Positions 17,101 through 48,347 of a DNA stretch of 50,491 nucleotides are shown one piece after another (the first letter of the stretch is position 1; every line of letters begins with the position of its first letter). The position numbers and the translations under genes were made by a program. The notes below the pieces were generated by a model, which worked only from the letters and a program-made list of their open reading frames with translations, had not been told where the DNA came from and made no database searches. The stretch is from a virus. The DNA is taken from positions 1 through 50,491 of IMG/VR virus record IMGVR_UViG_3300042402_002333; one strand, 5' to 3'.

Positions 17101-20100
17101 AAGCACCTTTGTAGGTTACTATTTCACCTTTGGCGTAAGTTTTTAATCCAGTCCAAGTTGGTATGTTGTTTTGATTTAAAATAAAACCTTGTGCATTGAC
17201 ACTCCCGTCCCACTCTGTGCTAGTGGTTCCAGAAAGATATAGTCTACTTTGTCTAGCACCAGTTATGGGTTCAAAGATCAAATCACCAAACAAACTGGCA
17301 TTATTCAACACAATCATACTTTCAAAACTAGTATAACGCATGTCAATGAAACTCAAACTTTGATTGTTTAAAGGCTGAATACTAAAGTTGTTGTTTACTC
17401 GCACAATGTTGAGATCACGTGTGGGGAAATCTTTACGATTCTGATCTAATATTACATGTTCCGCAGTTTGTGATGTTATATTGTCCACTACTGCTTGTTC
17501 TTTGAACACAGACAGTCCTATAGCCAAAGGATTCAAATTAATTAAACTGCCATTGCCCCAGCCTTGTTGACTCCAGTATATGAACTCGTACACCATTTGT
17601 GACCAGGTCATCAAGTAACCATTGGTCTGATTGGTAAATTCAAAGCCTTGTGATTCTAGAAACTTTCCATAACTCAACAAGAAATTAGCCACAGCACTTT
17701 CAGTTGTGAATACAAACCCATAGGGAATTTGAGTAATAGTGTCTGTATAATTGGCAGGCACTTGAATGGTCTTGTCGGCCACACTGTATGTTTCAAATTG
17801 CCCAACTGGAATGCTAGTAAATGTGTTAAAATATGGTCTAGCAGTGCTATACCCAAATACTGCATAACCACCATCCACAACTTGAATCACAACTGAACTA
17901 TAGATCAATCTGTCAAATGGTTGATTCTTGTACACCAGCAGTTGATAACTCTCTGGCGGAATTTGCAAAGAGGCGTTGGTTGAATTAGGGCTGGACTTTT
18001 CGGTGTAAATTTTTAGATATTGTTTGTCAGAGAATGACGCCATTCTGTAACACAGTCGTACATCAAGATTTTGCAGGTCTTTTTCCAATGCCACAGTACT
18101 GTTGGTACCTGTGATACGGTTGTAATCCACAATCCAGTTGATGTAACTGGCTTTGCTGGTGCCGTCGCCATACACTTGCACGCCATTGGCATCAAGTCTA
18201 TATCGACCATTGTAAAGATATTGATCAAACTCTGTGCTGTATTTGTATAAGTCTCTGTCAGCCAACAGTGCAAAGAATTTTGCCGGTCGAGTCAAGGCTA
18301 GCAACCGCATCACAGCAAATGGGTAGTCGCTTGAATTCCACCACGAAGCTTCTGTTGGGCCGCCATCACCGGGCACCCAACTTTTCTGAAACATTTGTGA
18401 ATTATACCCACCTACTACTGACTCCAATGGTGCTAATAGATCACCGGCAGTATCAGTTGGTAGTACAGAAGTTAGTCCGGGCCTAGCATAGGCGAGTAAT
18501 GTGTATGCGCCCACTGGATCCCTCACAAGACCAAGTTCTAAATCATCCCACAAATTCATATTGTCAGATGTATATGGTGCAGGACCGTAAGTGATTTCCC
18601 ACCAGTCTGGTTGAACTGAAAAGCCAAGCATTTCCCAAGGAGTCAATTCTGGCTGTTGAGTATCATAGAAATAACGATAGATACCGCGCCATGCGCCCAA
18701 TAATGTGCCACCATTAAGTTTGTTAGTTGACGAACTGTAGTTGTAGGTAAACGGATTGCTGACACTATAGTTTTGTTCGTTGTAGTTTAATTTGTTCCAT
18801 CCAACATAGGTCAAGAAATTTGTTTCTAATATGGTATTGATTTCTGAAGAACTATACCCAGTGTTTCTAAACTGACCTGGCAATACGTCTGCAACATCAA
18901 GCGGCACTGGGTTGCCATCTAATTTAATGTTGTTGTAAATTCTAGTTTCAAATTCTAACAATACTTCGTCACGAATATCACCAAAAATAGGAGTCTGACT
19001 GCCATCATGTCCTAATATGACCAGTTGTTCACCTGTGCTGGTTTTAACTGGAATAATAGCAGGACGCCATGCAGGATACAATCCCATCTTGCTGGGTGTA
19101 TTGGGCACATAAGTACCGTAAGTGGTAGTATATTCTTGGAGGGACACCACATCACCAATGGCTAGTTCAATTAAAATGTCAATACGCGGGCCATCTGTGG
19201 CTACTGTATATTCTAAGTCTCTAGTTAAAATTTCGTCATTCACATACACATTCATACCAAGGTAATTAGATGATGTATAGTTGTATACTTGCACAGTATC
19301 AAACACTTGACTAGTTGTATAACTTACTGTGTATGTTGTTGTAGTAAACACTGCACTAGCTGGCAGCATGTCACTCCAATAGAATGGATTACTTGATGTG
19401 CGACCTAATGTAATTTCGGCTATAACTGTGTCAAGCACTTGTGATGCAGTTTCATACTGAATAGTTTGTCTGGTCACAGCTTCCAGCATTTGATTTTTGT
19501 ACTTTTGATATTCTCTGCTGTTGTATTCTAATGCACCAAAAATATTGTACTGCTGAGATCTCATAAAGTATCCAGCAAGAGTCAACGGAGAACTTTGTTG
19601 TAAAATTATTTGGCCATAAGGTATAATATTGCCAAGATCTCTAGTGTTATTTGCACCGTTAATTGCGCCACTGAACGTGGTTAAATTTTGGCAGATACTA
19701 TCGTAGTGAGTGCGCAACGTACCCAAAGTAAAACTTGGACTGTCAGCATTTAGTGGATTGTTATTGAGATTTAGTGGAACTTGATAAAATGCCACTTGAC
19801 TAACTTGATCACTGAGCACTTCAACTTCAATTACATCTCCTACTAAATGTACGGTGCTGAATGTAATAGTTGTGGTATTAGCAGTGGTAGCCACTGTGTA
19901 TGTGCCTGGATCTTGGAAAATTGATCCCACAAACACTTTTACACTAGGCACAGTTGTTACTGCATTTGACTGAACAGCAACATCCAATTGCAACGATTGT
20001 AAATTATAAACAAACTTAAACTGCTGTCGCATCAATGTAGGCACCGCAGCAGTTTGCCAGCCAATCAATCTTTCATACACAGTTCTTGACGCATACTCAT

Positions 20101-22894
20101 AAACAAATCCAGAACTAATTGGTGCTGTGGTGCTGACATTGTCACGCACATACACAAATGTGTCTGAATACAAATTGTTATCAAACACAATATCTCCCAC
20201 ATTTGTTAACGTGAGATATTTGAGTGTTAACTGCAATACTGGATCTGTGATTCCTGATCCGGTAGCATAACTAAACAATTTTGTGCCAGCAAATGTTGAA
20301 CTTGGGTATGTGGTTTTGTTTGCCAAACTTACGCCGTTTGCATCAAATATATCAAACAATGGTGCCTGTTGTATTGCGGTTTTTTGTTGTGCTTCTAACC
20401 AATTTACCCCATCATACCAGTAAGTAACACCAGTTTGTGAACCGCCAAGACATACTGTGTTTTGATTGGTTAAAATTTCTCCGTCAACTGCTTCTACCAA
20501 ATTTATAATTGGTTGTGTAATTAACGGCGCTACAGTATCTGGTACAATAAAATTCACTACATAAATTTTGCTGCGTACAACTGGATCTGTATCAGCCGCA
20601 AATACCACACGACTACCATTGACAAATGTATAATCATTCACTGAATAGCCATTGCTGCCTTCTATATTACTAAACGCATCAGTTTCCGTAAAGTCAATAA
20701 TATCTACTGGTTGTTTGGCATCTGTGCCCATGTCATACAATCTAATCCCACCACGGAATTGTATAATTGGACGCTTGCCTTTTTTATCGTTATCAATTAC
20801 AATTGGAGTATCGTTATATGCACCAGTGGCATTAAGTACATCAATATGGAACCAACGATTACTACGGCTCCAAGCATTTAGATCAGGACTATCTCGATTG
20901 ATAGTAAAGTAATCAATATCATTTGCAGAAGCATAGTCTTCTGGAGTAATATAATTTTCTACAGGCAACAACTCTATTGCAGTGCCCACTCCACTTACAT
21001 AGTATTGTGGGTTTTGACTAGCAGTTGCAGTCATAGTGCCATTGGCCGAAGTTAGTGTTAATGCTGGACCATTTTTAGTTACACTTACTTTGAATTGACT
21101 ACTGCTAAAAATTGTGTGAACATAATATGTCACGCCAGTGCTGACTCCGCCAAACACGGTGCCAGTAAAAATAACTTCTTGTCCAACAATCATTCCTGCT
21201 GTAGATTCTGTGGTAATAAGATTAATACCTGATGCAGTGTTTGTACAAATAAAAGCAAAAGACCCTGTAGCATAACTAGCTGGCGATACATTGCCTAAAA
21301 ATTGAACTTTTAGTCCATTGGTGAATACTACACCATTTGGACTGGTATAAGCAGTTTTTCCTACAATGTCTTCTACATAAATTGTGCTGTCGTTGCTTTG
21401 TTCAACCAGTCGTATAGTTCCAAATATTTCTGGGTCAGTACCATCCTGGTAATACAATGTATCCAGCTTGGCAGTAAGCACTGGCATTTCAATGATATAA
21501 CCAGCTTGATTTTTATACCACTGTGTGCTGGCATACTCTGTGCCATACCGTATGGTCCATTTTTCCAAGTTGTTTATGGGTTGTATGCTGCCTAATGAAA
21601 GGTATGTATAGTCACCAACTGTAACATAACTGATGCGCCAAACGTTATAGTAGTCCGTGGCCGGATCACCATAAGAGTTAGCAAATACCAGTGTCCGTGT
21701 GTTAAGTCCGGTAATTCCATCTATGCCGCCATATGTGGCAATAAACTGGTCAAGTCTGGCGCCGTCTATATCTTCAAAACTCAAATTACTAACAAGATCC
21801 ACAGTGCCAATGCTGGTAAGATAGTAAAAGAAATCTTGTGTTGTTTTTTGCGGTACGTTAAAATTTATTGTACCAAGGTCAATGCCATTGTCAGTAACAC
21901 CATACACTGATCTAGAACTTACGTTTGGAGTAACAGGATTTTCGCCGCTGATACCTGGATCGGTTTGAATCCAAAATCCTGGACCATCTCCTGGTTCGGC
22001 ATCAATGATGCTAATGGTGCCTGTCATGAGACTTTGATTTTGACAAGAATAATACAGAATGTCAGGTGCATCTTGAGGCACAACAAATGTCACTGTGCCA
22101 ACTGTTGATCCATTGCGTGTTACACCTAAGTTGTAGGCATCACCTGTGCCTGTAGTGGCAGTAGTTTTAATCCAGAATGGAAAATCACCTTGCAGAAACA
22201 AGTTAAATGTATATGTGTTGCCGCGAATCAAAGTGATAGTAGCATTAGGGTTGTTGTCAATGTTGTAACTGGTAACATTGGTACGTGTGACTTTGTAGTT
22301 GACAGTTTCTTTGTTGTTTTGTGCTACTTGGAATGTGTAGTTACCACCACGCACTAAATTTATTGTGGGATTGTTTCCAGTTATTCCTGAAAATGTGTAA
22401 ACTCCATTGGCTCTATTCACAACAAAATTTTGACTCAGCGGCACACCAGGTGATTGCACAGTAACCACATCGGGTCCATTGGGTACCCAATAGTATTGAC
22501 TGAAGTTTACAAATGTATCAAAATCAATGAATGGATCAAATGTATAGTAATCGCTAGTGTATAGTCGGCTGGGTTGGGTTGATGGACTACCTTGATATAC
22601 CAATGTATCAGTTATGCCTGGATACGTAATAACATCTATTATTTTGTTATTGTCTGCAGGATCAATACTAATAACACCTGGCTCAAGTTGATAGTCCGAG
22701 CGAGTTTTGTCGGGCTCAATCACATACTTGTCGTTGGGGTTTACACCTGGGCCAACTGTGCGGCCAATATAGCCTTGGGTCTTTTTAAACTTTGGTTCTT
22801 GAATCAACTGATCCAGTGTAGCAGCCAAAAACTGCTTGTTGGCGTCAGTCTGAAAAATCTCAGGAAGAAAATCTACACTGCGTACTGTTGCCAT
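8135..22894 (-). CDS. Giant 4919-residue virion structural protein
   Basis: A single uninterrupted frame covers 14.8 kb. The N-terminus (FLPEIFQTDANKQFLAATLD) matches what I remember of very large structural proteins in T4-like aquatic phages. Residues about 175-300 hold two or three cupredoxin-like strand blocks (TLIRGNTYTFNLF). Between about 2330 and 3130 there are at least five FG-GAP-like blades, such as GEFGYSVAMSLDERWLYVGA and GQFGYSVAVNDTALNLVVGS, implying a beta-propeller interrupted by insertions. Two other short modules occur twice: LTSANGTM near residues 618 and 4068, and VGxTYTI(V/A)SVG near 2995 and 4797. Residues near 3800-3866 hold paired GTGY/GSGY strands. The ATG overlaps the gp6 stop (TAATG), so it is made together with a baseplate wedge protein. 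It could be a baseplate-attached fibre or the functional replacement of gp7/gp10; that is inference. Confidence 0.8.
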   Translation of the reverse strand: MATVRSVDFLPEIFQTDANKQFLAATLDQLIQEPKFKKTQGYIGRTVGPGVNPNDKYVIEPDKTRSDYQLEPGVISIDPADNNKIIDVITYPGITDTLVYQGSPSTQPSRLYTSDYYTFDPFIDFDTFVNFSQYYWVPNGPDVVTVQSPGVPLSQNFVVNRANGVYTFSGITGNNPTINLVRGGNYTFQVAQNNKETVNYKVTRTNVTSYNIDNNPNATITLIRGNTYTFNLFLQGDFPFWIKTTATTGTGDAYNLGVTRNGSTVGTVTFVVPQDAPDILYYSCQNQSLMTGTISIIDAEPGDGPGFWIQTDPGISGENPVTPNVSSRSVYGVTDNGIDLGTINFNVPQKTTQDFFYYLTSIGTVDLVSNLSFEDIDGARLDQFIATYGGIDGITGLNTRTLVFANSYGDPATDYYNVWRISYVTVGDYTYLSLGSIQPINNLEKWTIRYGTEYASTQWYKNQAGYIIEMPVLTAKLDTLYYQDGTDPEIFGTIRLVEQSNDSTIYVEDIVGKTAYTSPNGVVFTNGLKVQFLGNVSPASYATGSFAFICTNTASGINLITTESTAGMIVGQEVIFTGTVFGGVSTGVTYYVHTIFSSSQFKVSVTKNGPALTLTSANGTMTATASQNPQYYVSGVGTAIELLPVENYITPEDYASANDIDYFTINRDSPDLNAWSRSNRWFHIDVLNATGAYNDTPIVIDNDKKGKRPIIQFRGGIRLYDMGTDAKQPVDIIDFTETDAFSNIEGSNGYSVNDYTFVNGSRVVFAADTDPVVRSKIYVVNFIVPDTVAPLITQPIINLVEAVDGEILTNQNTVCLGGSQTGVTYWYDGVNWLEAQQKTAIQQAPLFDIFDANGVSLANKTTYPSSTFAGTKLFSYATGSGITDPVLQLTLKYLTLTNVGDIVFDNNLYSDTFVYVRDNVSTTAPISSGFVYEYASRTVYERLIGWQTAAVPTLMRQQFKFVYNLQSLQLDVAVQSNAVTTVPSVKVFVGSIFQDPGTYTVATTANTTTITFSTVHLVGDVIEVEVLSDQVSQVAFYQVPLNLNNNPLNADSPSFTLGTLRTHYDSICQNLTTFSGAINGANNTRDLGNIIPYGQIILQQSSPLTLAGYFMRSQQYNIFGALEYNSREYQKYKNQMLEAVTRQTIQYETASQVLDTVIAEITLGRTSSNPFYWSDMLPASAVFTTTTYTVSYTTSQVFDTVQVYNYTSSNYLGMNVYVNDEILTRDLEYTVATDGPRIDILIELAIGDVVSLQEYTTTYGTYVPNTPSKMGLYPAWRPAIIPVKTSTGEQLVILGHDGSQTPIFGDIRDEVLLEFETRIYNNIKLDGNPVPLDVADVLPGQFRNTGYSSSEINTILETNFLTYVGWNKLNYNEQNYSVSNPFTYNYSSSTNKLNGGTLLGAWRGIYRYFYDTQQPELTPWEMLGFSVQPDWWEITYGPAPYTSDNMNLWDDLELGLVRDPVGAYTLLAYARPGLTSVLPTDTAGDLLAPLESVVGGYNSQMFQKSWVPGDGGPTEASWWNSSDYPFAVMRLLALTRPAKFFALLADRDLYKYSTEFDQYLYNGRYRLDANGVQVYGDGTSKASYINWIVDYNRITGTNSTVALEKDLQNLDVRLCYRMASFSDKQYLKIYTEKSSPNSTNASLQIPPESYQLLVYKNQPFDRLIYSSVVIQVVDGGYAVFGYSTARPYFNTFTSIPVGQFETYSVADKTIQVPANYTDTITQIPYGFVFTTESAVANFLLSYGKFLESQGFEFTNQTNGYLMTWSQMVYEFIYWSQQGWGNGSLINLNPLAIGLSVFKEQAVVDNITSQTAEHVILDQNRKDFPTRDLNIVRVNNNFSIQPLNNQSLSFIDMRYTSFESMIVLNNASLFGDLIFEPITGARQSRLYLSGTTSTEWDGSVNAQGFILNQNNIPTWTGLKTYAKGEIVTYKGAYWSAATIVQPSTKFNYNDWNQSDYTFIEQGLLANLANKADQLSNSYDINSANLIADNDLLSYGLIGFRPRQYMAALNLDDVSQLNIYREFLGTKGTKNSIDLFGQAKFNKEVADYKVYENWAIQRGVYGANANRSFFDLRLNRALLSSNPSLVQVVVPNEPSTADQQILLSDVWKSSFPLTTPALLPTTTTLPTDISLPSAGYVNIDDVDITVFELDDPANLNANINSIIVGTIIWVAKVNNYDWAIYRAEAVPGTIQHVCDNLNGTSRVIFSGQHGLSTGDQLIIRFFDTEVNGVYKILSVPNITTVNIALDLEGDRTVVDGTGIGFTLKTMRVEQASDVLNLPYAQQIFPGAKVWVDDDGSGVWEVLEKQNPFTDRLILAPVLLDASEQYGASVAQATDLSALFVGSSRYGFGSGTAKGGIYLYVRSDAATYVPISPINDQDTVLTLNTTGLRGYGNAVDAGSQTFAVGGASASLGPGAQADNGYAVVLWRDPTSGAVNTSPWIQSQLLTLPGTTTTTTPGAGEFGYSVAMSLDERWLYVGAPGLNTVYAYGQVQWNNQFLQYRADGVSNTADISNNIQINNANQIVVTKNGAVLILTTDYTVNASFTTVTFTSVPVANDVINISRLFFKAFTASGATYSLSPYLFTVDNIYSFSVTVDSVLQRLNIDYTYSAGTLTFYNVPTPGAAIGVTSQYYYELAGTITPSVAVIAGARFGTSVQCSTDGRQVIIGCSNATVNTLVEAGSVYVVDRNVQKFIRQDDSSNTYTVLGTVAAPVSVLVNNVFLTNQTDSIVGADNTFSVSGNNITINKDLFVGDVIEIEINQFVQQQLITENTIAEYTNYGQSLDLCPYNCSLYVGAPQDSSIVWKGGVVERSVNQARSYGTITATLAPTSLTAGQTLRVNNVDITVPASPNNTVTGLAAAINGGEAGTNSGAPNATAVVSATGYLTIFVTNTDAAPVGNKLQVAPGSTGTVFADLGFETFAYTQTISSPRPTEFGQFGYSVAVNDTALNLVVGSPKGTLYSPMVFDYNSTTEKANTTFDGNSTAFFSSVSMVLGTAAAGSFVVGRQYTIVSVGTTDFTAIGAISNGVGIRFTATGSGSGTGTASYYITRSLTQSGAVYTYDYLPSNSLSVANPGKFVFGQQVETNTVSYLDQFGYAVSYNSGILVTTAPGEDFEDSTLGNFGAAYIFENPTRRLAWEPITVQQPVVDIRLLTSVYMYDRISSAKSQFFDFFDPLQGKVLGAAQENIDFISAIDPASYNVGPVNNRGDTWSTAHVGEVWWNISTVRFINPNQDNPTYASRRWGQVFPGSRVDVYQWISSTVPPANYIGVGTPYTTTSYVVSSRLNQSGTFVTEYYFWVRGITETASQLGKTLSVATVASYIQEPKASGISYIAPINSSTIAIYNALDYIVAADTIISVEFDQVLTDANVHTEYELIAQGQDDAFLSDNLYRKLQDSFCGVDTFGNQVPDIGLNYAQRYGVQFRPRQSMFVDRFLALKNYIQRANDVFALYPITESRSFALLNSAEPEPSAASSEWNLRVANLEILGFQNIYAVPLGYKYLVVTNSLNRGLWTINEVQTTATDPSVRELVLSRVQNYDTRQYWSYVNWYKPGYNSSSTIVTEVPNYATLATLSVAIGSSVKVTANTQGKFEIYLRTDTGWDRVGLEDGTIEISAEIYDYALGRFGFDVEVFDAQYFDQEPVIETRKIIQAINEELFIDDLKIERNQSLTLMFNFILSEFLAPEWLIKTSLIDVQHKVRDLVPYQNYIRDNQDFVSDYLQEVKPYHVQVREFNLTYDGADDYSGSLTDFDLPAYYDTNLTVPQYVSPILLPYQHATAQAFNTLSDTAPNSTLWPTWPYSQWFDNYLLHVDSITVTNQGTGYTIAPTVLIVPAEGDTGSGAEATAVLNSSGNIVSITLINGGSGYRSTPTVVFDGGNGTGVAAYPQMDNGLVRSFRTVLKYDRYQYQTSVLTWSPDGTYENGTLVRYDDRVWQADSADGSSAVIGPVFNLEDWTLIDAATLSGVNRTMGFYVPGVNELGLDLQLLVNGTSYPGVQVWGDYFLGSAPASPTLVCTATNATTNEITCVQTVRLSLNDPIRFYGNVFGGIVAGTVYYVNGIVDATHFTVALAPDGLAVSLTSANGTMIADVPEPIDATYASSFTDQYLGLRPTDINVDGGEFIGPYEGYAPEELVNGSEYDTLDFRVYTRPGADWTGRGHGFAIGSYNYVYNNSALDWSSLVQNPVNIEVSNVTTDTDLTPDVDYVADWETQTITAIPGGGITTGDVINIAAYEMGGGNQLFRGNYTGSEAGNSVVIPVNADEIYELVLFVNGMNVAGATWTAYAESEVWDYQNTYPQQIIVNNSGLYYRALQTVPPGILLNNALYWDEFVPTTQSLVTLPVTYGVGDGVSITAMGFENPQHSWSTATTQYHIVTESDVLTNSINLDNSMQGTNVANIVVTVNGKRLQPPEGIEWTGDGTSSSFGLPQRGGGYPQSAINAYTDIQVWVDNVLQVQNYGSVIGNYYVTNYDGSNTPGRQVVFFTPPVDGAEILISVNTIAQYTVAVGSPNKLILIPLLNQGDQLAITSWNDTSQQDPLTLVFIGPVTTGLTLVEPYDSTGYDYPGVANDTSGSFDFSLGIAIPDNDFNLGREGLIADRLWVTLDGNRLYAGVDYAVEGQYLILGSGIIGSAQVLAVTEFTQSIVPDAMAFRLFQDMRGVQTTFRITTTTTTTLAQAVSETADIIYVIDAAALSEPTLSAGIFGVVTINGERILYRVRDLATNSISGLQRGTAGTAASAHSADAEVYDMGIGNRQPQVDQNYIVSDTSTGDGSTTIFYAPTIEFDLTDSSFEINSIEVYVGGSRARVGYYAGQFVIGQTYTIASVGNTNWNAIGLPSNVYPLPGVVFTATGVGTGTGIAGDSLASNYFQETDYAPLAIQFITANDLLAPGAGVEVVILQRRGVTWYAPGVSTPSDGRPLQLTETNAARFLRGL

Positions 22895-37461: not shown

Positions 37462-39539
37462 TCCAAATACGAAATCTCACTGTTAAAAACTTTATGAGTG
37501 TGGGTGCTGCCACACAGGCCATTGACTTTGATCGCAATGATCTTACATTAGTACTGGGTGAAAACTTAGACCTAGGTGGCGATGGTAGCCGTAATGGCAC
37601 AGGTAAGACCACAATCATCAATGCGCTAAGTTATGCATTGTATGGCCAAGCACTGTCAAACATCCGCAAAGACAACTTAGTAAACAAGACCAATGCCAAA
37701 CACATGTTGGTCAGTTTAGACTTTCACATCAACGGCACAGACTACAAAATTGAGCGTGGTCGCAAACCCAATGTTCTCAAGTTCTATGTGAACAACGAAC
37801 ACAAGGCCGCAGAGGACGAAGCACAAGGAGATTCAAGAGAAACACAAGATGCCATAGAACGTATTATTGGCATGAGCCACGACATGTTCAAACATGTGCT
37901 GGCATTGAACACCTACACCGAACCGTTCCTAAGTTTGAAGGCCAATGACCAACGCACTATCATTGAACAGTTGTTGGGCATTACTTTATTGAGTGAGCGA
38001 GCAGATCGTATCAAAGAACTCAATAGACAGACTAAAGATGCCATCCAGTCTGAAGAGTTTAGAATTCGTGCTGTGCAAGAAGCCAACAAGCGCATTGAAG
38101 AACAGATTGAAAGTCTAAAGCGTAGACAAGTGCTTTGGCAAAAGAAGTATGACAGTGACGTGGCTTATCTAGTTGGTCAGTATAACGATCTGGCAAAGAT
38201 TGATATTGAACTAGAACTGTTGGCTCACAAAGATCTAGCTGTGTGGTCTGCAAGAAAACAACAACAAGATGCATATACTGCTCTTGTTGGTCGGCAAACT
38301 GCTTGGAAACAAAAACAAAACAAAGACATTGGTGAGTTAGAATCAACCTACAACCAACTCAGCCACATTAACATTGCAGCAGAACTGCAAGCACACACAG
38401 ACTTGGCTGCTTACACTCAAAAAGCCAAAGACATTGTGGATCTTGAAAAATACATTGCTAGATGTGGTGCAGATGAAGCCAAAGAACAAAAAGTAATTGA
38501 TAAGTTAAAAGCCGAAATTGAAGAATTAAAAGATCACAAGTGCTATGCGTGTGGACAAGACTTCCACGATACCAATCACGAAACAGTATTGGCTGCTAAA
38601 GAGAAAGCCTTGCAAGAGGCAGCGTTACAAGCTCTATCCACAAATACACAGTGGATTGAGAACACTGATGCACTGCAAGCATTAGGCAAGTTGGGTACCA
38701 AACCTACAACATATTATGCAACAGAAACAGAAGCAATTCGACATTCTAGTGAGTTGGAAAACATTCAACACAAGATTGATGCCAAACGTGCAGAAACAGA
38801 TCCCTATGCTGAACAGTTGGCAGAACACACACCTGTAGAAGTTGGCGCACAACCTGTTACGCATTATGATACTGAAACACAAGCAATTGATCATCGCAGT
38901 CGAATGAATACAATGCTAACACAGATCAATAGCAAAGCACTAGAGACCGATCCGTATACAGAACAAATTACCGAAATGCAACAACAGGCCCTACAGATAG
39001 TGAGTTATGATCATTTAAACGAACTCACAAGAGTACAAGATCATCAAGACTTCTTGTTAAAACTGTTGACCTCAAAAGACTCGTTTGTGCGTAAGAAGAT
39101 TATTGAGCAAAATTTGAGCTATTTGAATCAACGTCTCACACACTACTTGGATAGAATTGGCTTGCCACACACAGTAAAATTCATGAACGATCTAAGTGTG
39201 AGCATTGAGGAACTGGGTCGTGAACTGGACTTTGACAACCTGAGTCGCGGTGAACGCAATCGCCTGATCCTTAGCATGAGTTGGGCATTCCGTGATGTGT
39301 GGGAAAGTTTGTACTCGCCAATCAACTTGTTGTTTATTGACGAGATGATTGACAACGGCTTGGACACACAAGGTGTAGAGAATGCCTTAGGCTTGCTGAA
39401 GAAGATGAGTCGTGAACGTCACAAGTCAATTTGGCTTGTGAGTCACAGAGACGAACTAACCAGCAGGGTAGAAAACATTCTCAAGGTCATCAAAGAGAAT
39501 GGCTTTACCAGTTACAACACGGATGTAGAAATTGCGTAA
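37458..39539 (+). CDS. gp46: Recombination endonuclease subunit gp46 (Rad50/SbcC-like ATPase)
   Basis: The 693-residue protein has the Walker A motif around residues 43-52 (GSRNGTGKTT), a zinc hook KCYACGQ near residue 360 at the tip of a long coiled coil, the ABC signature LSRGERNRLILS near residue 594, and Walker B LLFIDEMIDNGLD shortly after, followed by a WLVSHRDE switch. T4 gp46 has 560 residues; the extra length is in the coiled coil, which shows internal duplication: a YYATETEAIRHSSELENIQH unit is repeated as HYDTETQAIDHRSRMNTMLT, each followed by an ETDPY.EQ element. With gp47 it resects DNA ends. The start overlaps the upstream stop (ATGA) and its stop overlaps a TTG-started radical SAM gene. 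Confidence 0.94.
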   Translation: MIQIRNLTVKNFMSVGAATQAIDFDRNDLTLVLGENLDLGGDGSRNGTGKTTIINALSYALYGQALSNIRKDNLVNKTNAKHMLVSLDFHINGTDYKIERGRKPNVLKFYVNNEHKAAEDEAQGDSRETQDAIERIIGMSHDMFKHVLALNTYTEPFLSLKANDQRTIIEQLLGITLLSERADRIKELNRQTKDAIQSEEFRIRAVQEANKRIEEQIESLKRRQVLWQKKYDSDVAYLVGQYNDLAKIDIELELLAHKDLAVWSARKQQQDAYTALVGRQTAWKQKQNKDIGELESTYNQLSHINIAAELQAHTDLAAYTQKAKDIVDLEKYIARCGADEAKEQKVIDKLKAEIEELKDHKCYACGQDFHDTNHETVLAAKEKALQEAALQALSTNTQWIENTDALQALGKLGTKPTTYYATETEAIRHSSELENIQHKIDAKRAETDPYAEQLAEHTPVEVGAQPVTHYDTETQAIDHRSRMNTMLTQINSKALETDPYTEQITEMQQQALQIVSYDHLNELTRVQDHQDFLLKLLTSKDSFVRKKIIEQNLSYLNQRLTHYLDRIGLPHTVKFMNDLSVSIEELGRELDFDNLSRGERNRLILSMSWAFRDVWESLYSPINLLFIDEMIDNGLDTQGVENALGLLKKMSRERHKSIWLVSHRDELTSRVENILKVIKENGFTSYNTDVEIA

Positions 39540-40383
39540 GATCAAAGTATTACATCTTGAACCCACTGATGTGTGTCAAGCCGCATGTCCAGCATGTGCT
39601 AGAGAGACTGACTCAAAGTTTCGCAAGGATCAAAAACATCATTTGACCATTGGGCATATACAACGGCACTTTTCAGATCGCAGAATCAAGAGCTTAGATA
39701 AAGTGTTCATGTGCGGCAACTACGGAGATCCAGCCGCAGGTGCCTATACTGGTGACATGTACAAATGGTTTAGACAGCTAAACCCCACAATCACACTAGG
39801 CATGAATACCAACGGTGCCATACAAAACACTTTCTGGTGGCACGAAATTGGACGCTTGTTCAATCAACCTCAGGACTATGTGGTATTCAGCATTGATGGC
39901 CTAGAAGATACCAATGGCGTGTATAGAAAAGGTGTGAGCTGGACCAAGCTCATGCAAAATGCGCAGGCATTTATTGAAGCAGGCGGTTCGGCACACTGGG
40001 ACATGTTGATCTATCAACACAACGAACACCAAGTTGACGAGTGTGAGCAGCTGGCTCGAAACATGGGTTTTAAATGGTTTCGGGCCAAAGTCAGCAAACG
40101 ATCATTGATTGGCAGATTAGAGTGGCCAAGAAACTATCAGGCACAATCATTTGATGGTGTCATAAAGTGTCATGCACAGCAAGAAAAAAGTGCTTATATA
40201 GATGCCCGAGGCAATCTCGGCCCTTGCTGTTGGATAGGTGCCACACAAACAGATTTTGTTAGCACTGATTCTGTGGTAGACTTTTATCCAAAGAAACACG
40301 CAACTTGTGTTGCAACTTGCTCAACAGATCAATCGCAAACAGCATTTTCAAATCAGTGGCGCAAAGAAATTCAGTTATGTTAG
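39532..40383 (+). CDS. Radical SAM/SPASM protein 2 (TTG start)
   Basis: The 283-residue protein has the cluster motif C15-x3-C19-x2-C22 (VCQAACPAC), then FMCGNYGDP in place of GGEP, MNTNGAIQNTFWWHEI, FSIDGLEDTNGVYR and QHNEHQVDEC. The tail is KCHAQ, then YIDARGNLGPCCW and CVATC, the SPASM auxiliary-cluster pattern. It starts at TTG 39532, eight bases inside gp46, and ends seven bases after the next start. It is closely related in motif order to proteins 1 and 3, so the three are probably paralogues rather than separate acquisitions. The substrate is not known. A small peptide substrate would be expected by analogy with RiPP maturases, but I see no convincing short precursor gene beside it. 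Confidence 0.85.
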   Translation: MRKIKVLHLEPTDVCQAACPACARETDSKFRKDQKHHLTIGHIQRHFSDRRIKSLDKVFMCGNYGDPAAGAYTGDMYKWFRQLNPTITLGMNTNGAIQNTFWWHEIGRLFNQPQDYVVFSIDGLEDTNGVYRKGVSWTKLMQNAQAFIEAGGSAHWDMLIYQHNEHQVDECEQLARNMGFKWFRAKVSKRSLIGRLEWPRNYQAQSFDGVIKCHAQQEKSAYIDARGNLGPCCWIGATQTDFVSTDSVVDFYPKKHATCVATCSTDQSQTAFSNQWRKEIQLC

Positions 40384-41387
40384 CAACTTGGCATTTTCAC
40401 ATTGAGATTTCCAGCAAGTGTACCTTGCGGTGTCCTCGGTGTGCCCGCCAAGAAGTACCTGATGGACTTGTAAACACAGAACTAGACTTAGAATTTTTCA
40501 AACGCAACTTCACTCCAGAGTTTGTGAAAGCCAATGTAGAGAAGATTACATTCTGTGGCGATGATGGTGATCCTATCTATGCACATGATTTGATTGCAGT
40601 AATTAGCTATCTTAAAAGTATAAAACCTGTTGAAATTGTCATTGTTACCAATGGATCACACAAAAAATTAACTTGGTGGACTCAATTGGGTACTTTGTTG
40701 GACTCAAATGATAGTGTTCACTTTAGTATAGATGGATACGACAACGCCAGCAATAACTTGTATCGAGTAAACAGCGATTATGACAGCATCATTGACGGTT
40801 TACAAACATTGCGTAGCATGAGTGATTGCCAAATTGTGTGGGCTGCTATTGCATTCAAGTTCAACGAACATCACATAGACACAATGAAAAAAGTTGCCAA
40901 AAAACTTGGCGTAGACAGATTTCAATTGACCAAGAGCACAAAGTTTGGCAGTGTGTATCCATCGTATGGGGTTGACGATCCACTTGAACCCAGCGTAAAA
41001 TTTGTCAGCAGTTCACATCGCTTTGAACGTGAAGTTACTGCATTAACAGAAACAAGTGAATGGACTAAAATTCCACTCACAAACAATCGACTATTCAATC
41101 AAACTAAAAGTCGTAACGGTATTACTCCGTTATGCGAGATAGGCAACAAAGGATTGTACATTGATGCTCGCGGCAGGCTATTCCCTTGCTGTTGGGTAGC
41201 CAACAGATACAATCACAATTTAGACTGGCAGCAATTAGCAAACAACTTTGATCTAAAAACAAAAACATTAACAGACGTATTGGCAGATAGTTTTTGGGCT
41301 AACGAGTTCCAAACTTTCAAGTGGCAAGAATGTCAAACCAAATGCTCTAGTGCATTGGTTGACGAAAAATACGCTACTTCTTGGTAA
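40377..41387 (+). CDS. Radical SAM/SPASM protein 3
   Basis: The best start is the ATG at 40377 (MLATWHFHIEIS), which gives 336 residues; the longer reading from 40305 adds residues that lie in the previous gene. It has C15-x3-C19-x2-C22 (KCTLRCPRC), FCGDDGDPIY, a TNGSHKKLTWW segment, FSIDGYDNASNNLYR and a NEHHID element. The tail holds LCEIGNKGLYIDARGRLFPC followed by another C and W, then ECQTKC. Compared with the other two it has about 50 extra residues before the SPASM cysteines (KFGSVYPSYGVDDPLEPS). It is the last coupled gene of the operon and looks more AT-rich than gp46. The reaction is unknown. Confidence 0.85.
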   Translation: MLATWHFHIEISSKCTLRCPRCARQEVPDGLVNTELDLEFFKRNFTPEFVKANVEKITFCGDDGDPIYAHDLIAVISYLKSIKPVEIVIVTNGSHKKLTWWTQLGTLLDSNDSVHFSIDGYDNASNNLYRVNSDYDSIIDGLQTLRSMSDCQIVWAAIAFKFNEHHIDTMKKVAKKLGVDRFQLTKSTKFGSVYPSYGVDDPLEPSVKFVSSSHRFEREVTALTETSEWTKIPLTNNRLFNQTKSRNGITPLCEIGNKGLYIDARGRLFPCCWVANRYNHNLDWQQLANNFDLKTKTLTDVLADSFWANEFQTFKWQECQTKCSSALVDEKYATSW

Positions 41388-43355: not shown

Positions 43356-43790
43356 TTACTCCAGTGGTCCTAGTATTTCAAATCCCGCCATGCTAGATTT
43401 GTATAAGTGTGCTTGCTCAAGGTACAGGTATTTAAATCCTCGTGCCTTGTAGATTGCACACTCGGTTTTCATTGTTTCTATTCCCAAGCGTAATTTGGGA
43501 TTGTTGTAGTTCCATGCAAATTGATCGCACAGTGCGTTATGATCGTCGTAGCGGCGGATCAAGCTGAATGCAACCAATTTATCGTTGTCGTAGTACCCAA
43601 TAACATCTGTCATTGGATCTGTGTATCGACTGTCAAATATAGGCATCACGCTGGCAAAATGTTTGTATTTGCAATAGTCTCTGTAGATACTGTTTAGCTG
43701 TTTGATGTCAGTATCAAGCAGGTACTCCCACTTCACAGTTGGTGTATAGTTTGTTTTTGCTAGATCAATTCTGGCAAACTGATAGCTCAT
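43356..43790 (-). CDS. GNAT-like acetyltransferase fold protein
   Basis: The 144-residue protein has a strand pair DVIGYYDNDKLVAFSLIRRY, then a helix with ETMKTECAIYKARGFKYLYL, the arrangement of GNAT motifs A and B where a helix after a central strand pair binds acetyl-CoA. The classic Q/RxxGxG/A loop is not clear, so it may use another acyl or aminoacyl donor or be non-catalytic. Related phage proteins are listed as GNAT-like. It overlaps the next gene upstream by four bases and precedes the DUF6614-like gene by two bases. The target could be a host protein or a small molecule. The assignment is by fold-like pattern only. Confidence 0.5.
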   Translation of the reverse strand: MSYQFARIDLAKTNYTPTVKWEYLLDTDIKQLNSIYRDYCKYKHFASVMPIFDSRYTDPMTDVIGYYDNDKLVAFSLIRRYDDHNALCDQFAWNYNNPKLRLGIETMKTECAIYKARGFKYLYLEQAHLYKSSMAGFEILGPLE

Positions 43791-44287
43791 CTTGGATCCT
43801 TGCGATGTTCAAACAATCCAGTAAGATACTCTTCTGGCCAGTTGTGATAGAATCCCTTCTCGGCTATTGTTCGGGCTCGAGCATCAAGATCGCTGAGACT
43901 TTGCACTAGAGCCAGAGCGTATGTGCCTTGGTTCATGCACACACCGTTGACCATCTCAACGTCTGCGGGATGATCTTCTAGTGCAAGAAGATTGTTGCGC
44001 AGTAAAAATTCTTTGTTGGCAATTTTTAAACTGTCACTGAATAACTCATATGGCCACTCTATCGGATCATACGCATAGATTACTACTTCCCAGGTTCCCA
44101 TACCCCAACGTGCTTGATTCTTCAAATCAAAGTAAGGATGCACACCCACTCGTACATCATAACTTTTTTTCATGCGTGCTGCTCGTGCGTATGGACAAGG
44201 CGCCCAACCACCTAGTGCTGGATGCGGAACTTCTACAAAGTTCACAATCCACTGTTCTATATCGTGAGTGACTGTTTCAATATCCAT
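43787..44287 (-). CDS. Conserved hypothetical protein
   Basis: The 166-residue protein includes VPHPALGGWAPCPYARAARM, a Cys-Pro-Tyr-Ala-Arg motif near residues 31-35 that recalls the CPFA(R/K) motif of DUF1415-like proteins, and later EVVIYAYDPIEWPYELFSDS, GVCMNQGTYALALVQSL and FYHNWPEEYLTGLFEHR. I have seen comparable proteins in T4-like aquatic phages without assigned function. There is no signal peptide or membrane segment. It overlaps the GNAT-like gene by four bases and abuts the small 62-residue ORF upstream, so it belongs to the same minus-strand operon. The Cys may be redox-active or metal-binding, which is speculation. Confidence 0.6.
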   Translation of the reverse strand: MDIETVTHDIEQWIVNFVEVPHPALGGWAPCPYARAARMKKSYDVRVGVHPYFDLKNQARWGMGTWEVVIYAYDPIEWPYELFSDSLKIANKEFLLRNNLLALEDHPADVEMVNGVCMNQGTYALALVQSLSDLDARARTIAEKGFYHNWPEEYLTGLFEHRKDPR

Positions 44288-44475
44288 TAGAAGAACGGCA
44301 AGTTTGTTTTCTTGGTAGTTTCTATATTTTCTTTGGCCAATGCAGCAATCATTGCACGTTCGTTACTGCTGAGTTGTAATACTTGTTCGTAAGTGATGCC
44401 GCCACGCATGTGCCAGGCCAATTTGAATCCTTCTTCTCGAATTGAATTGGCCTCCTTTTCCATGCCTTCAATCAT
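44287..44475 (-). CDS. Small conserved T4-like phage protein, probable -1 frame extension of the gp26-like protein
   Basis: The ORF gives 62 residues from ATG 44475 with REEGFKLAWHMRGGITYEQV, ERAMIAALAKENIETTKKT and a final LPFF. I recognise the central part from small conserved proteins of T4-like cyanophages. The ATG has no Shine-Dalgarno. The frame is open 5' of the ATG through TASAEQIND and joins the gp26-like gene at a slippery site, so it may be made mainly as the C-terminal part of a fusion. A fusion of this type resembles the G/GT tail assembly chaperones that are made upstream of tape-measure genes. Its independent initiation cannot be excluded. Confidence 0.7.
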   Translation of the reverse strand: MIEGMEKEANSIREEGFKLAWHMRGGITYEQVLQLSSNERAMIAALAKENIETTKKTNLPFF

Positions 44476-45344
44476 GTCATTGATTTGTTCTGCGCTTGCG
44501 GTCAGGAGGCGGCGCCGAAAAAATTTGCTGTATCCAAAGTAAAGTTTTGTTCGTATTCATGTTCACAATTGGAACATTTCATTTTTATCGGCTTAAACTC
44601 ATCATAGGCACGAATTTTAATTGCATGATCTCTAATCTCACCGTAAAGTTGCCGATCGCAATTCATTAAAAAGTCTTCAATAAAATCTGGTTCAGACACC
44701 AGAGCTTGCGGAGTTTTGATTCCGACAATACTGCTTCTGATGGCTTTTACTGTGATCTTGGTAATCTGTTGAATAGCATCGTTTAACATTTTGGTTTTTT
44801 GTTCTTCAGATAGATCTGAAGTTGGCAATTGTGCCAACACACGTTGTTGTTCAAATTGCAGTAGGTTGATTTCAGTTTGCTTTTCGTACACAACAGACTG
44901 GAAGTAAATTTCAAGATCGCCGTGCTTGACAGATTCCGAAAAGTCTGGTGCTTCTAACGTGTCTAATAGATTTTTTAGATCCAGTTCAAAATTATTTTCT
45001 GTAGAACATTTCTCACAAGTGGTATCAACTTCCATCATTGGGCCATAGCTGGCAATACGAATGGCTGTGAGGATAGTGTTGAGATCGCAGTTGGGCATGT
45101 TCCAAGCATTTTTAATGTTGGGTATGCAACTTTGTACCACACTCACAATGGCTGCTCCGTTGAACAGTGCGTCAGGAGTGCGATAGGTAATTTCGTCCAT
45201 GGCAGTCATGGGCAATATTGGCAGTTCTCGATTGACTGGCATGTCTATGCTACCGGGTGGCCAAAATTGTCCATCACTAGGCAAGCGAATGTAAATGGCA
45301 GGTTGACGAAAAAACGCTCGTAACGGGTTCAAAGATTGGGTCAT
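44287..45344 (-). CDS. Predicted -1 frameshift fusion of the gp26-like protein with the downstream ORF (352 aa)
   Basis: If ribosomes slip -1 on A AAT TTT at 44526-44520, the first 275 residues of the gp26-like protein join to FRRRLLTASAEQIND and then the 62-residue ORF. The shorter product ends four codons after the site at TGA 44504-44502. The -1 frame has no stop between the site and the end of the second ORF. This is an inference from sequence only; a ratio of long and short products would be expected, as in lambda G/GT. T4-like phages are not generally known to use this device. Confidence 0.5.
44502..45344 (-). CDS. gp26: gp26-like baseplate hub/tail assembly protein with zinc-finger cysteines
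   Basis: The 280-residue protein begins with NPLRAFFRQPAIYIRLPSDG and PPGSIDMPVNRELPILPMTA, a start I know from cyanophage gp26-type proteins. Near residue 110 is TCEKCSTENN and near residue 256 is CSNCEHEYEQNF, two CxxC pairs that would bind a zinc ion. The middle is helical (QQRVLAQLPTSDLSEEQKTK). T4 gp26 (208 residues) belongs to the set needed for hub assembly. It is transcribed away from the tape-measure gene from back-to-back late boxes at 45354-45376, fitting a joint role in tail assembly. The final codons include a slippery site leading to a possible extended product. Confidence 0.65.
   Translation of the reverse strand: MTQSLNPLRAFFRQPAIYIRLPSDGQFWPPGSIDMPVNRELPILPMTAMDEITYRTPDALFNGAAIVSVVQSCIPNIKNAWNMPNCDLNTILTAIRIASYGPMMEVDTTCEKCSTENNFELDLKNLLDTLEAPDFSESVKHGDLEIYFQSVVYEKQTEINLLQFEQQRVLAQLPTSDLSEEQKTKMLNDAIQQITKITVKAIRSSIVGIKTPQALVSEPDFIEDFLMNCDRQLYGEIRDHAIKIRAYDEFKPIKMKCSNCEHEYEQNFTLDTANFFGAAS
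44520..44526 (-). promoter_or_regulatory. Slippery heptamer A AAT TTT, predicted -1 frameshift site
   Basis: In the gp26-like reading frame the codons are GCA AAT TTT TTC, so the bases 44526-44520 form X XXY YYZ with A, T and T. A GC-rich stretch (CGGCGCCGCCTCCTGACC) follows, which could form a short stem. The zero-frame stop comes at 44504-44502. Confidence 0.6.
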
Positions 45345-45386: not shown

Positions 45387-48347
45387 ATGGCCACAACAAT
45401 TGATGAACCAGCAGACCGAAGCAATAATGCACTAGAACGAATGGCAGCCTCAGCAGAACGAGCAGAACGAGCCTCTGAAGCAAATACTATAGCAACCGCA
45501 CAAGCTGCTGTTGTGACCAAAAAACTTGCAGACGAAGAAAAAGCTGCTACTGAAGCAGCCGCACGATTCAAAGTCAAAATGGATACTGCTACCGGTGCCG
45601 CTGGTAGTCTAGTAGATGCGTTTGTTACCTACAACAAAGAAGTATACAAAGGATCCAGTGCCAATCAAGCTGCTGCTGCCAGCATAGAAAAAATGGGCGA
45701 AGCGGCCAAATATGCAGGTGCGTTTCTTGCAATTTTAGTTCCTGGCGGACCCGTAGTCAAAGCATTGGTTGCTGGCTTAGGATTGCTAACTGCTAAACTA
45801 CTAGAAGCCGGTGTTGAAGTAGCAAGACATACTGATGAAGTTTACAAAGCCTACCAAGACATGGCTAAAATTGGTGCCACTGGTGCAGGTGGCATGCAAG
45901 ATGTATTCAACAGCCTACAAAAAGTAGGATTAGGTACACAAAAATTTGGTGAGTATCTCAAACTTGTAAATGACAATTCCAAAGATCTAGCCTTGTTTAG
46001 TGGCACAGTACGAGGAGGCCGCAAGATCTTTGAGAACACCATGGCGTCTTTGTCTGTTCAGCAAAAAGAACAGATGGAGTTAATGGGCCTAAACGATAGT
46101 GCTAGAGCTGAAGTCACAATGGCTTACATCAAGCAGCAACGCTTGTTGACCCTGGGCACTAAAACGCAGATGGACACTAGCAGTGCGGCTGTGATGAGAT
46201 ATATCAATGAGACTGACCAACTTACACGCATTACCGGACTGAATCGCCAAGAACAAGAAAAAGCATTAGAAATAGCAATGGCCAACGAAGCGTTCCAGGC
46301 CACTATTATAGACATGCAGGAAAGAGGCCTGCATGAAAGTGCAAAAGTAGCTCAATCAATGCATGCTGTAGCATATTCTATTAGCCCTGAAAAAGGAGCT
46401 CAATTTGCAGCAAGTTTGTCAGAATTTGGCGCAGCTACTAAGTTAGGTGGTCAGGCCTACATGTCTTCGGCTGGCGAGAGCGCCGAAGTATCAAGAAAAC
46501 TACTTGCTGGCGAGATTAGAACGTCCGAGCAAGGCATAGCTGCCACGGAAAGCCTGTTTAAGGCTTACGGCAAAAATACAGAAATGTTCCGAAGCCAGGC
46601 AGCAATGAGCAACTACGGCGAGTCTATGGGCAATTTTCGCGATGATGTCGCTGCGGGAGCCATGGCAGCAAACGGCCTTGCGAAAAATTTTGAAAAAGCA
46701 GGAAAAGATCTTGCAGACGCTAAAACTACTGATCCTCTAGTTAAAGCACAAGCCAAAACTGCGGTAGAAACTCAACAACAGCAATTGCTGTTGCAGAGAA
46801 AACTCAATGAGCTAATGCCAGGGTATGTTGAAGAATTGGGCAAGGCATCAACTGCAAACAGAAAAATATCGGATGACATTGATAAGAATTTATTACCAGA
46901 ATTTAAAAATCTAACAGATGCGTTGAAACCATTGGGCACTGAATTGTTGTATATAGCAAAAACAGTATTACCATCCATGACAACAGTTATTGGATCATTA
47001 ACAACTGCTGTTAGAGGATTAGCTGATTTTCTCAATTGGTTTAACGGCGATCAGAAAAAAGCAAGTATTGCAAAACTTAAAGAATTGGACAAAGCTGGTG
47101 GAAATGCCCAACTCACTGGCGGGCTAGGAGGAGCAGCAATAGGCGGCAGTGCCGGTGCTATTGCTGGTGGACTGCTTGGCTTTTTTGGTGGTCCACCAGG
47201 CATAGCTGCGGGTATAAAATTTGGATCAATAATTGGTGCTGGACTAGGTGGTTACATTGGCAGAAATTACGGAGAAGAAGCAGAAAAAAATGTTGCCAAT
47301 CCTCAACCAACTGCTCCACTACCGCCAGGCAAAGCAGCCGGTGGTCCGGTAATGGGAAAAACACCATATCTAGTGGGCGAAGAAGGACCAGAAATATTTG
47401 TGCCTAGCGTGGCTGGTGATATTATACCCACTGGAAAACTACAAGGCACTACTGGTGCAGCACTAAAACAACGCACTGAGGTTGAAAAACTTGTTGATCA
47501 AATTGTTGTTAATATCAAACAGCAAAAAACAATATCAGACGCTGATCTTAAACTTGAGAAAGAGTACAGCAAGTTTTACAAAGAATTTATCACTGTTAAA
47601 ACCAAATTTGAAAAAGATCAACTTGAAGCAATAAACTATCAACTGACCGAAGGCTCTAGTGGCGCTGCTGGAGCAGGTGGTAGCGGGGGCTCAGGATTGA
47701 AAATGCCAAGCATGCCCGGCATTGCTGGTATGGGCGGCGGCCAAGGTCTTCGAGCTACTAGACAAGATGACTTGTCTAAGATGGGATTGAATATCAAAAC
47801 TGGTGATGTGCAAGCCGAGGGTGCAGGCATTAGTCCTAGGTTAATTGAATTAGCTCGTCAAATACAAGGTGGTGTGCCAGGATTTAATTATTTCAGTGCA
47901 TTTAACGACAAGTTCCATCAAGAAAAAGCACCCAGCAGTCAACATGCCAAAGGCCTGGCACTAGACTTTACTGTGGCACAACAGCCCAGCATTGAAGAAG
48001 GCAAAGCCATTACTGATTGGCTCAAAGGTCTGGGTGCCAGTTTGGCCATTGATGAATACAACAATCCCAGTTCAAAATCCACAGCAGGGCATTTCCATGC
48101 ACAAATTCCCGGCTTTGAAGAAGGCGGAATGCTGGGTGCAGGCAAAATAGGCATTGCAGGTGAAGGTGGCAAACCAGAATTAATATCTGGACCAGCTAGT
48201 ATTACACCAATGAATGACCTAATGGGTGCATTAAATAATCTCAACGCTGTGATGGAACGCAGCCATAGCACACTGTCCGAAATTGCTAGAATCAGCAAAG
48301 CCACTAGTGACTCCAGTGCTAAGATGCTGTCGTATGCACAGAACTAA
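45387..48347 (+). CDS. Tape-measure-like tail protein with embedded M15-type peptidase
   Basis: The 986-residue protein has a helical first part with a hydrophobic stretch (YAGAFLAILVPGGPVVKALV, residues about 109-142), a second glycine-rich hydrophobic segment at about 575-620 (GGLLGFFGGPPGIAAGIKFG), and at about 655-680 the tape-measure hallmark GGPVMGKTPYLVGEEGPEIF ending in VPS. Residues about 840-905 match M15/VanY-type peptidases: SSQHAKGLALDF gives the H-x6-D pair and GHFHAQ gives the HxH zinc ligand. It likely sets tail length and cuts peptide cross-links when DNA is injected. It is transcribed from the divergent late promoters, next to the gp26-like gene and the portal. Confidence 0.78.
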   Translation: MATTIDEPADRSNNALERMAASAERAERASEANTIATAQAAVVTKKLADEEKAATEAAARFKVKMDTATGAAGSLVDAFVTYNKEVYKGSSANQAAAASIEKMGEAAKYAGAFLAILVPGGPVVKALVAGLGLLTAKLLEAGVEVARHTDEVYKAYQDMAKIGATGAGGMQDVFNSLQKVGLGTQKFGEYLKLVNDNSKDLALFSGTVRGGRKIFENTMASLSVQQKEQMELMGLNDSARAEVTMAYIKQQRLLTLGTKTQMDTSSAAVMRYINETDQLTRITGLNRQEQEKALEIAMANEAFQATIIDMQERGLHESAKVAQSMHAVAYSISPEKGAQFAASLSEFGAATKLGGQAYMSSAGESAEVSRKLLAGEIRTSEQGIAATESLFKAYGKNTEMFRSQAAMSNYGESMGNFRDDVAAGAMAANGLAKNFEKAGKDLADAKTTDPLVKAQAKTAVETQQQQLLLQRKLNELMPGYVEELGKASTANRKISDDIDKNLLPEFKNLTDALKPLGTELLYIAKTVLPSMTTVIGSLTTAVRGLADFLNWFNGDQKKASIAKLKELDKAGGNAQLTGGLGGAAIGGSAGAIAGGLLGFFGGPPGIAAGIKFGSIIGAGLGGYIGRNYGEEAEKNVANPQPTAPLPPGKAAGGPVMGKTPYLVGEEGPEIFVPSVAGDIIPTGKLQGTTGAALKQRTEVEKLVDQIVVNIKQQKTISDADLKLEKEYSKFYKEFITVKTKFEKDQLEAINYQLTEGSSGAAGAGGSGGSGLKMPSMPGIAGMGGGQGLRATRQDDLSKMGLNIKTGDVQAEGAGISPRLIELARQIQGGVPGFNYFSAFNDKFHQEKAPSSQHAKGLALDFTVAQQPSIEEGKAITDWLKGLGASLAIDEYNNPSSKSTAGHFHAQIPGFEEGGMLGAGKIGIAGEGGKPELISGPASITPMNDLMGALNNLNAVMERSHSTLSEIARISKATSDSSAKMLSYAQN

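Follow-up and report, generated by a model that had tools for sequence, protein, structure and literature searches.

Reading Frames at the End of the gp26-Like ORF

The window, a 50,491-nt stretch of viral DNA analysed here as a whole, carries on its minus strand a gp26-like ORF with a short ORF directly behind it in the -1 frame. The question raised by this locus is whether the two are read as one protein by ribosomal frameshifting, as the first-pass annotation had proposed from the window alone. The features concerned are the following.

44502..45344, minus strand: gp26-like ORF, short form (TAC-N), 280 aa; identified by PF12322, phrog_150 and the AF2 model
44517..44523, minus strand: slippery heptamer T_TTT_TTC, kept across relatives as the slip site; in phase
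44520..44526, minus strand: overlapping heptamer A_AAT_TTT; in phase, not conserved
44502..44504, minus strand: zero-frame stop TGA, which terminates the short form; sequence read directly
44287..44517, minus strand: -1 frame extension (C-terminal domain, TAC-C) with its stop TAA; open in window-like relatives

The 3' end of the gp26-like ORF reads ...GCA AAT TTT TTC GGC GCC GCC TCC TGA. Direct reading placed AAATTTTTTC five codons ahead of the ORF stop and confirmed the earlier claim that A_AAT_TTT lies there in phase. Two in-phase heptamers overlap at this site, A_AAT_TTT (44526-44520) and T_TTT_TTC (44523-44517), and slippage at either would give the identical junction (...TANFFRRRLL...) and the identical 352-residue protein. 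The -1 frame was found open to the TAA at 44289-44287, so that the open frame and the 352-residue fusion were as first described. The heptamer named at that time was thus correct in phase and product, but the overlapping T_TTT_TTC, which is the conserved one, had been missed.

When the window ORFs of at least 80 aa (n = 60) were scanned for heptamers, an in-phase X_XXY_YYZ within the last 15 codons was present only in the gp26-like ORF (1/60). No Shine-Dalgarno-like sequence was found at the ATG (44475) of the 62-aa ORF, in agreement with the first-pass annotation. At 44285-44289 (minus strand), the TAA of the extension and the ATG of the following ORF (43787-44287) overlap, which suggests that this ORF is translationally coupled to the frameshift product.

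Protein Identity and Gene Order

The gp26-like ORF scored 51.6 bits against PF12322 (T4_baseplate; cut-off 24.5), which places it in the gp26 family, and it matched phrog_150 ("baseplate hub") at 1.4e-17. Its AF2 model (pLDDT 87) matched predicted gp26-like phage proteins with a best E of 1.2e-24; no PDB entry matched this N-terminal model below 0.001 in a fold search. The C-terminal domain encoded by the -1 extension was predicted to be helical (pLDDT 88). Nothing useful was returned when its sequence was compared with Pfam, PHROG, NCBIfam and PDB, and a viral fold search with its model gave no structural match. A Helicobacter prophage gave a weak tblastn match to this domain (E 0.4), which lay inside an unrelated 1743-base CDS and was rejected as chance.

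The neighbouring gene is divergent:

45387..48347, plus strand: tape-measure-like gene, 986 aa; phrog_5062 local match and synteny

The first-pass annotation had called this a back-to-back tape-measure gene. The adjacent, divergent arrangement was borne out, but the identity depends mainly on synteny, the direct profile match being weak: the local match to phrog_5062 (tail length tape measure) was 6.6e-5, and the gene occupies the position of CBB_251, GAP32_244 and RaK2 ORF088, the last of which is annotated as similar to tape measure protein. In S-PM2, the order is a tail-tube-like gene, gp26, a small ORF and then a large gene; phiM12 shows the same order, with a tape-measure-like gene in the last place. 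In the mass-spectrometry table of the CBB virion, CBB_247 is followed directly by CBB_251 and the gp26 gene is not listed, and PA5oct gp336 is without a mass-spectrometry tag, its neighbour gp335 being tagged.

Two other features of the window were recorded. A 4919-aa ORF (8135-22894, minus strand), downstream of a 1148-aa ORF, gave a weak FG-GAP_2 match (7.4e-6), which hints at a giant structural or adhesin-like protein. Overlapping radical-SAM ORFs (39532-40383 and 40305-41387, plus strand), the second with a SPASM-like domain, lie directly downstream of a gp46-like SMC/AAA ORF.

Conservation of the Slip Site Among Relatives

Relatives were searched with single proteins as queries; conservation was too low for an alignment-based scan. 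The gp26-like protein retrieved 90 phage records by tblastn, and among the 60 matches listed nearly all alignments stop at residue 276-277, the position of the slip site; two Atu_ph07 records among them reach residue 280. In all eight cultured jumbo phages examined (Atu_ph07, CBB, PA5oct, XacN1, Phosso, RaK2, Munch and GAP32), NNT TTT TT[C/T] stands just ahead of the gp26 stop and the -1 frame is open. The same slip motif and an open -1 frame were observed in 30 complete uncultured relatives (36-98% identity), as well as in KVP40, S-PM2, P-SSM2, HTVC008M and phiM12.

In total, 113 distinct loci were compared, and T_TTT_TT[C/T] was in phase in all but one. The 112 comprise 22 window-like, 10 jumbo, 78 cyanophage-like (HTVC008M included) and 2 further loci, and thus cover the window's uncultured clade, the RaK2-like jumbo phages, the cyanophages, HTVC008M, KVP40 and phiM12; in 3 of the cyanophage-like loci, the contig ends within the extension. 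The codon that supplies the first T varies (AAT, AGT, CAT, GCT, CGT, ACT, TCT, GAT), but it always ends in T. For this constancy, log10 P, uncorrected for relatedness, was -6.1 in window-like, -2.8 in jumbo and -19.4 in cyanophage sequences. Given that the gp26-like ORF is the sole such ORF among the 60 of the window and that the site is kept in 112 of 113 relatives, the slip site is beyond chance.

Comparison of homologues had been proposed earlier as a check, with a changed heptamer as refutation. A_AAT_TTT is indeed lost in many homologues (ACATTTT, AAGTTTT, CCGTTTT, TAGTTTT), whereas T_TTT_TT[C/T] is kept; such a test would therefore mislead, since it was tied to A_AAT_TTT and not to the conserved T_TTT_TTC.

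The single exception, L129, is a 236-kb cyanophage-like contig in which a net two-base deletion at the slip site gives an in-frame fusion. A second PF12322 copy was looked for in this 236-kb record and was not found. Either the frameshift has truly been lost in L129, or the T run was misassembled. L129 also illustrates that an in-frame version may occur, which speaks for the reading that a sequencing error or gene decay split one original frame elsewhere. Such an origin can nevertheless be dismissed for practical purposes, because the identical frame break at the identical codon recurs in 112 distinct loci, many of them in genomes of cultured phages, and this conservation refutes it. In Salmonella phage ViI (L054, NC_015296), the C-terminal domain is also in the -1 frame, with the site A_ATT_TTC, which is not a canonical heptamer; this phage may use another route.

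Coding Signature of the -1 Extension

The extension is open, free of gaps and exactly 78 codons long from the heptamer in all 22 distinct window-like sequences. Its codons 3-16 precede the first ATG of the window in the -1 frame, and within the window clade they showed 577 synonymous versus 419 non-synonymous single-base codon differences, compared with 284:496 and 84:751 in the other two frames. On this codon evidence, selection on the -1 frame acts at the protein level from the slip site on, ahead of any start codon.

These results bear on a rival reading, in which the small ORF is an independent gene with a start of its own or one reached by re-initiation once gp26 has terminated. It is entered as a CDS of its own in several records, and in most cyanophages an ATG directly follows the gp26 stop, so that re-initiation is conceivable in that group. 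The window clade, however, has no start codon upstream of the mid-domain that is common to all 22 distinct sequences, the ATG of the window is without a Shine-Dalgarno-like sequence as noted above, and the protein-like selection begins at the slip site. A separate gene would also leave the phase of the heptamer and the offset of the stem described below unexplained. This reading is therefore given a very low probability, and an independent small-ORF gene was rejected on the lack of a common start together with the selection from the slip site.

Predicted Stem Downstream of the Slip Site

Helix prediction in the window gave two pairing arms downstream of the heptamer:

44504..44510, minus strand: predicted stem 5' arm GCCTCCT; begins 6 nt past the heptamer
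44450..44456, minus strand: predicted stem 3' arm AGGAGGC; helix prediction

Across relatives, the strongest downstream helix starts at the 7th nucleotide after the heptamer, which corresponds to a 6-nt spacer. The mean helix score at nucleotide 7 was 17.6, versus 9.08 +/- 1.23 over 241 offsets (26 sequences). With one sequence per lineage (n = 18), the score was 16.8 versus 8.93 +/- 0.86, and for the window clade alone (n = 8) it was 18.9 versus 8.60 +/- 1.33. The arms differ in sequence between lineages and are unrelated to one another, as seen in Atu_ph07 (GGCTCTTTGT/ACAAAGAGCC), XacN1 (CCATCAAGTCC/GGACTTGATGG) and P-SSM2 (AGTATGGCTCA/TGAGTCATACT); S-PM2 has a 14-bp stem that starts at nucleotide 10. 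The cyanophage-like hairpin was paired in 92% of cells (40 sequences), and one of its pairs covaries UA/GC/AU, a value that 0 of 500 shuffles reached. No clear stem was found in a few lineages (L030, L032, L007, L160 and L053). According to these predictions, the stem is at a fixed distance from the heptamer in most lineages.

In the window, the stem is modest (7 bp, with a long loop), and the 77-nt region shows no more folding than shuffled sequence does (z -0.44). For the window itself the stem is thus a prediction, the case for which is carried by the offset test and the relatives.

The fixed codon phase and the stem 6 nt downstream are features of the ribosomal type. They speak against transcriptional slippage, in which the polymerase would slip on the T run and produce mRNAs with the long frame restored. 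The site does consist of a six-T run after AAA, but six T is a short run for polymerase slippage, and we regard this explanation as highly improbable, more so than a separate gene.

Relation to Known Chaperone Systems

Vladimirov and co-workers are said to have found frameshifting conserved in several T4-like groups, with genes 26 and 51 concerned in T4. The tail assembly chaperone genes of T4-like phages were identified by Vladimirov, Gautam and Davidson (Virology 2022;566:9-15); to judge from the passages that cite this study, it deals with T4-like phages that have separate short and long genes (PMC10885494) and with poly-T slip sites in the TAC-N genes of T4-like phages (PMC12846349). As far as these citing passages convey, those chaperones resemble the window in having a gp26-type gene from which both a short and a long form would be made, and a frameshift in T4-like gp26, of which the first-pass annotation knew no description, had already been reported. 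On the strength of the two citations, the kind of frameshift is already known in T4-like phages. In the open-access literature, no paper was found on a slip in RaK2-like jumbo phages or on the stem.

The locus resembles lambda gpG/gpGT in its predicted -1 slip near the 3' end, its putative short and long chaperones and its tape-measure-like neighbour (PMC5009743); it differs in protein family and heptamer, and the tape-measure-like gene is divergent in the window and not downstream. In the TAC genes of Vandenendeviridae and Andersonviridae, TAC-N likewise ends in a poly-T -1 slip site and the -1 frame is open, but these genes belong to other phage families and their motif is GTTTTT, compared with TTTTTTC in the window (PMC12846349).

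T4 has two PF12322 genes, 26 and 51, whereas the window has one gene with a slip site. Both gp26 and gp51 are listed as hub assembly chaperones (PMC3004832), and gp51 holds the C-terminal domain in one frame. Among 549 ORFs, a profile of the cyanophage C-terminal extension matched gp51 (2.3e-5), the small -1 ORF of ViI (2.7e-4) and the second of two CP81 genes (0.0041). In this Campylobacter phage (L059/L061), two PF12322 genes stand in tandem, the second with a C-terminal extension in one frame. From the matches to gp51 and the CP81 gene, T4 and the Campylobacter phage appear to encode the two forms, short and long, in separate genes. The KVP40 record notes a small ORF resembling the gp51 C-terminus, and a cyanophage gp51 without the first ~200 residues was described by Sullivan et al. 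2010 (PMC3037559). The profile of the window/jumbo extension gave no direct gp51 match among the 549 ORFs, and its hhalign comparison with the cyanophage/T4 extension was weak (E 0.002, probability 14%); the two are tied weakly by sequence and mainly by position.

Proposed Recoding and Its Implications

The comparative evidence strongly supports the G/GT-like reading put forward at first: programmed -1 frameshifting very probably yields short and long tail assembly chaperones in the manner of lambda G/GT. Most ribosomes would stop at 44504-44502, with the gp26-like short form of 280 aa as their product. The others, fewer in number and delayed by the stem-loop 6 nt downstream, would slip back one base on T_TTT_TTC, perhaps aided by the overlapping A_AAT_TTT, and would continue into the 352-aa long form, whose C-terminal domain is predicted to be helical. 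On the model of lambda G/GT, the tape measure protein would be coated by abundant short copies and a few long ones, which would also bring in subunits of the tail tube. We infer the slippage itself and its efficiency from the sequences compared. That the products would act as tail assembly chaperones is suggested by the gene order of S-PM2 and phiM12, by the hub assembly chaperone role under which T4 gp26 and gp51 are listed and by the G/GT precedent.

We lean, with some reserve, towards one ancestral cassette (T_TTT_TTC with a stem 6 nt downstream) common to the T4 superfamily, with cyanophages at one end and RaK2-like jumbo phages at the other. Unrelated arms would have replaced those of the stem time and again, and gene duplication (26/51) would have let T4 and the Campylobacter phages escape the cassette.

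The present analysis adds to the known frameshift the jumbo and uncultured lineages, the exact slip site and the downstream stem. The known range of the recoding signal thereby comes to include giant phages as well as an uncultured group, in whose records the long form is left unannotated, and small ORFs labelled "hypothetical" would gain a function-bearing annotation. The analysis also offers a candidate stimulatory element in a phage superfamily that was once deemed an exception to the G/GT rule.
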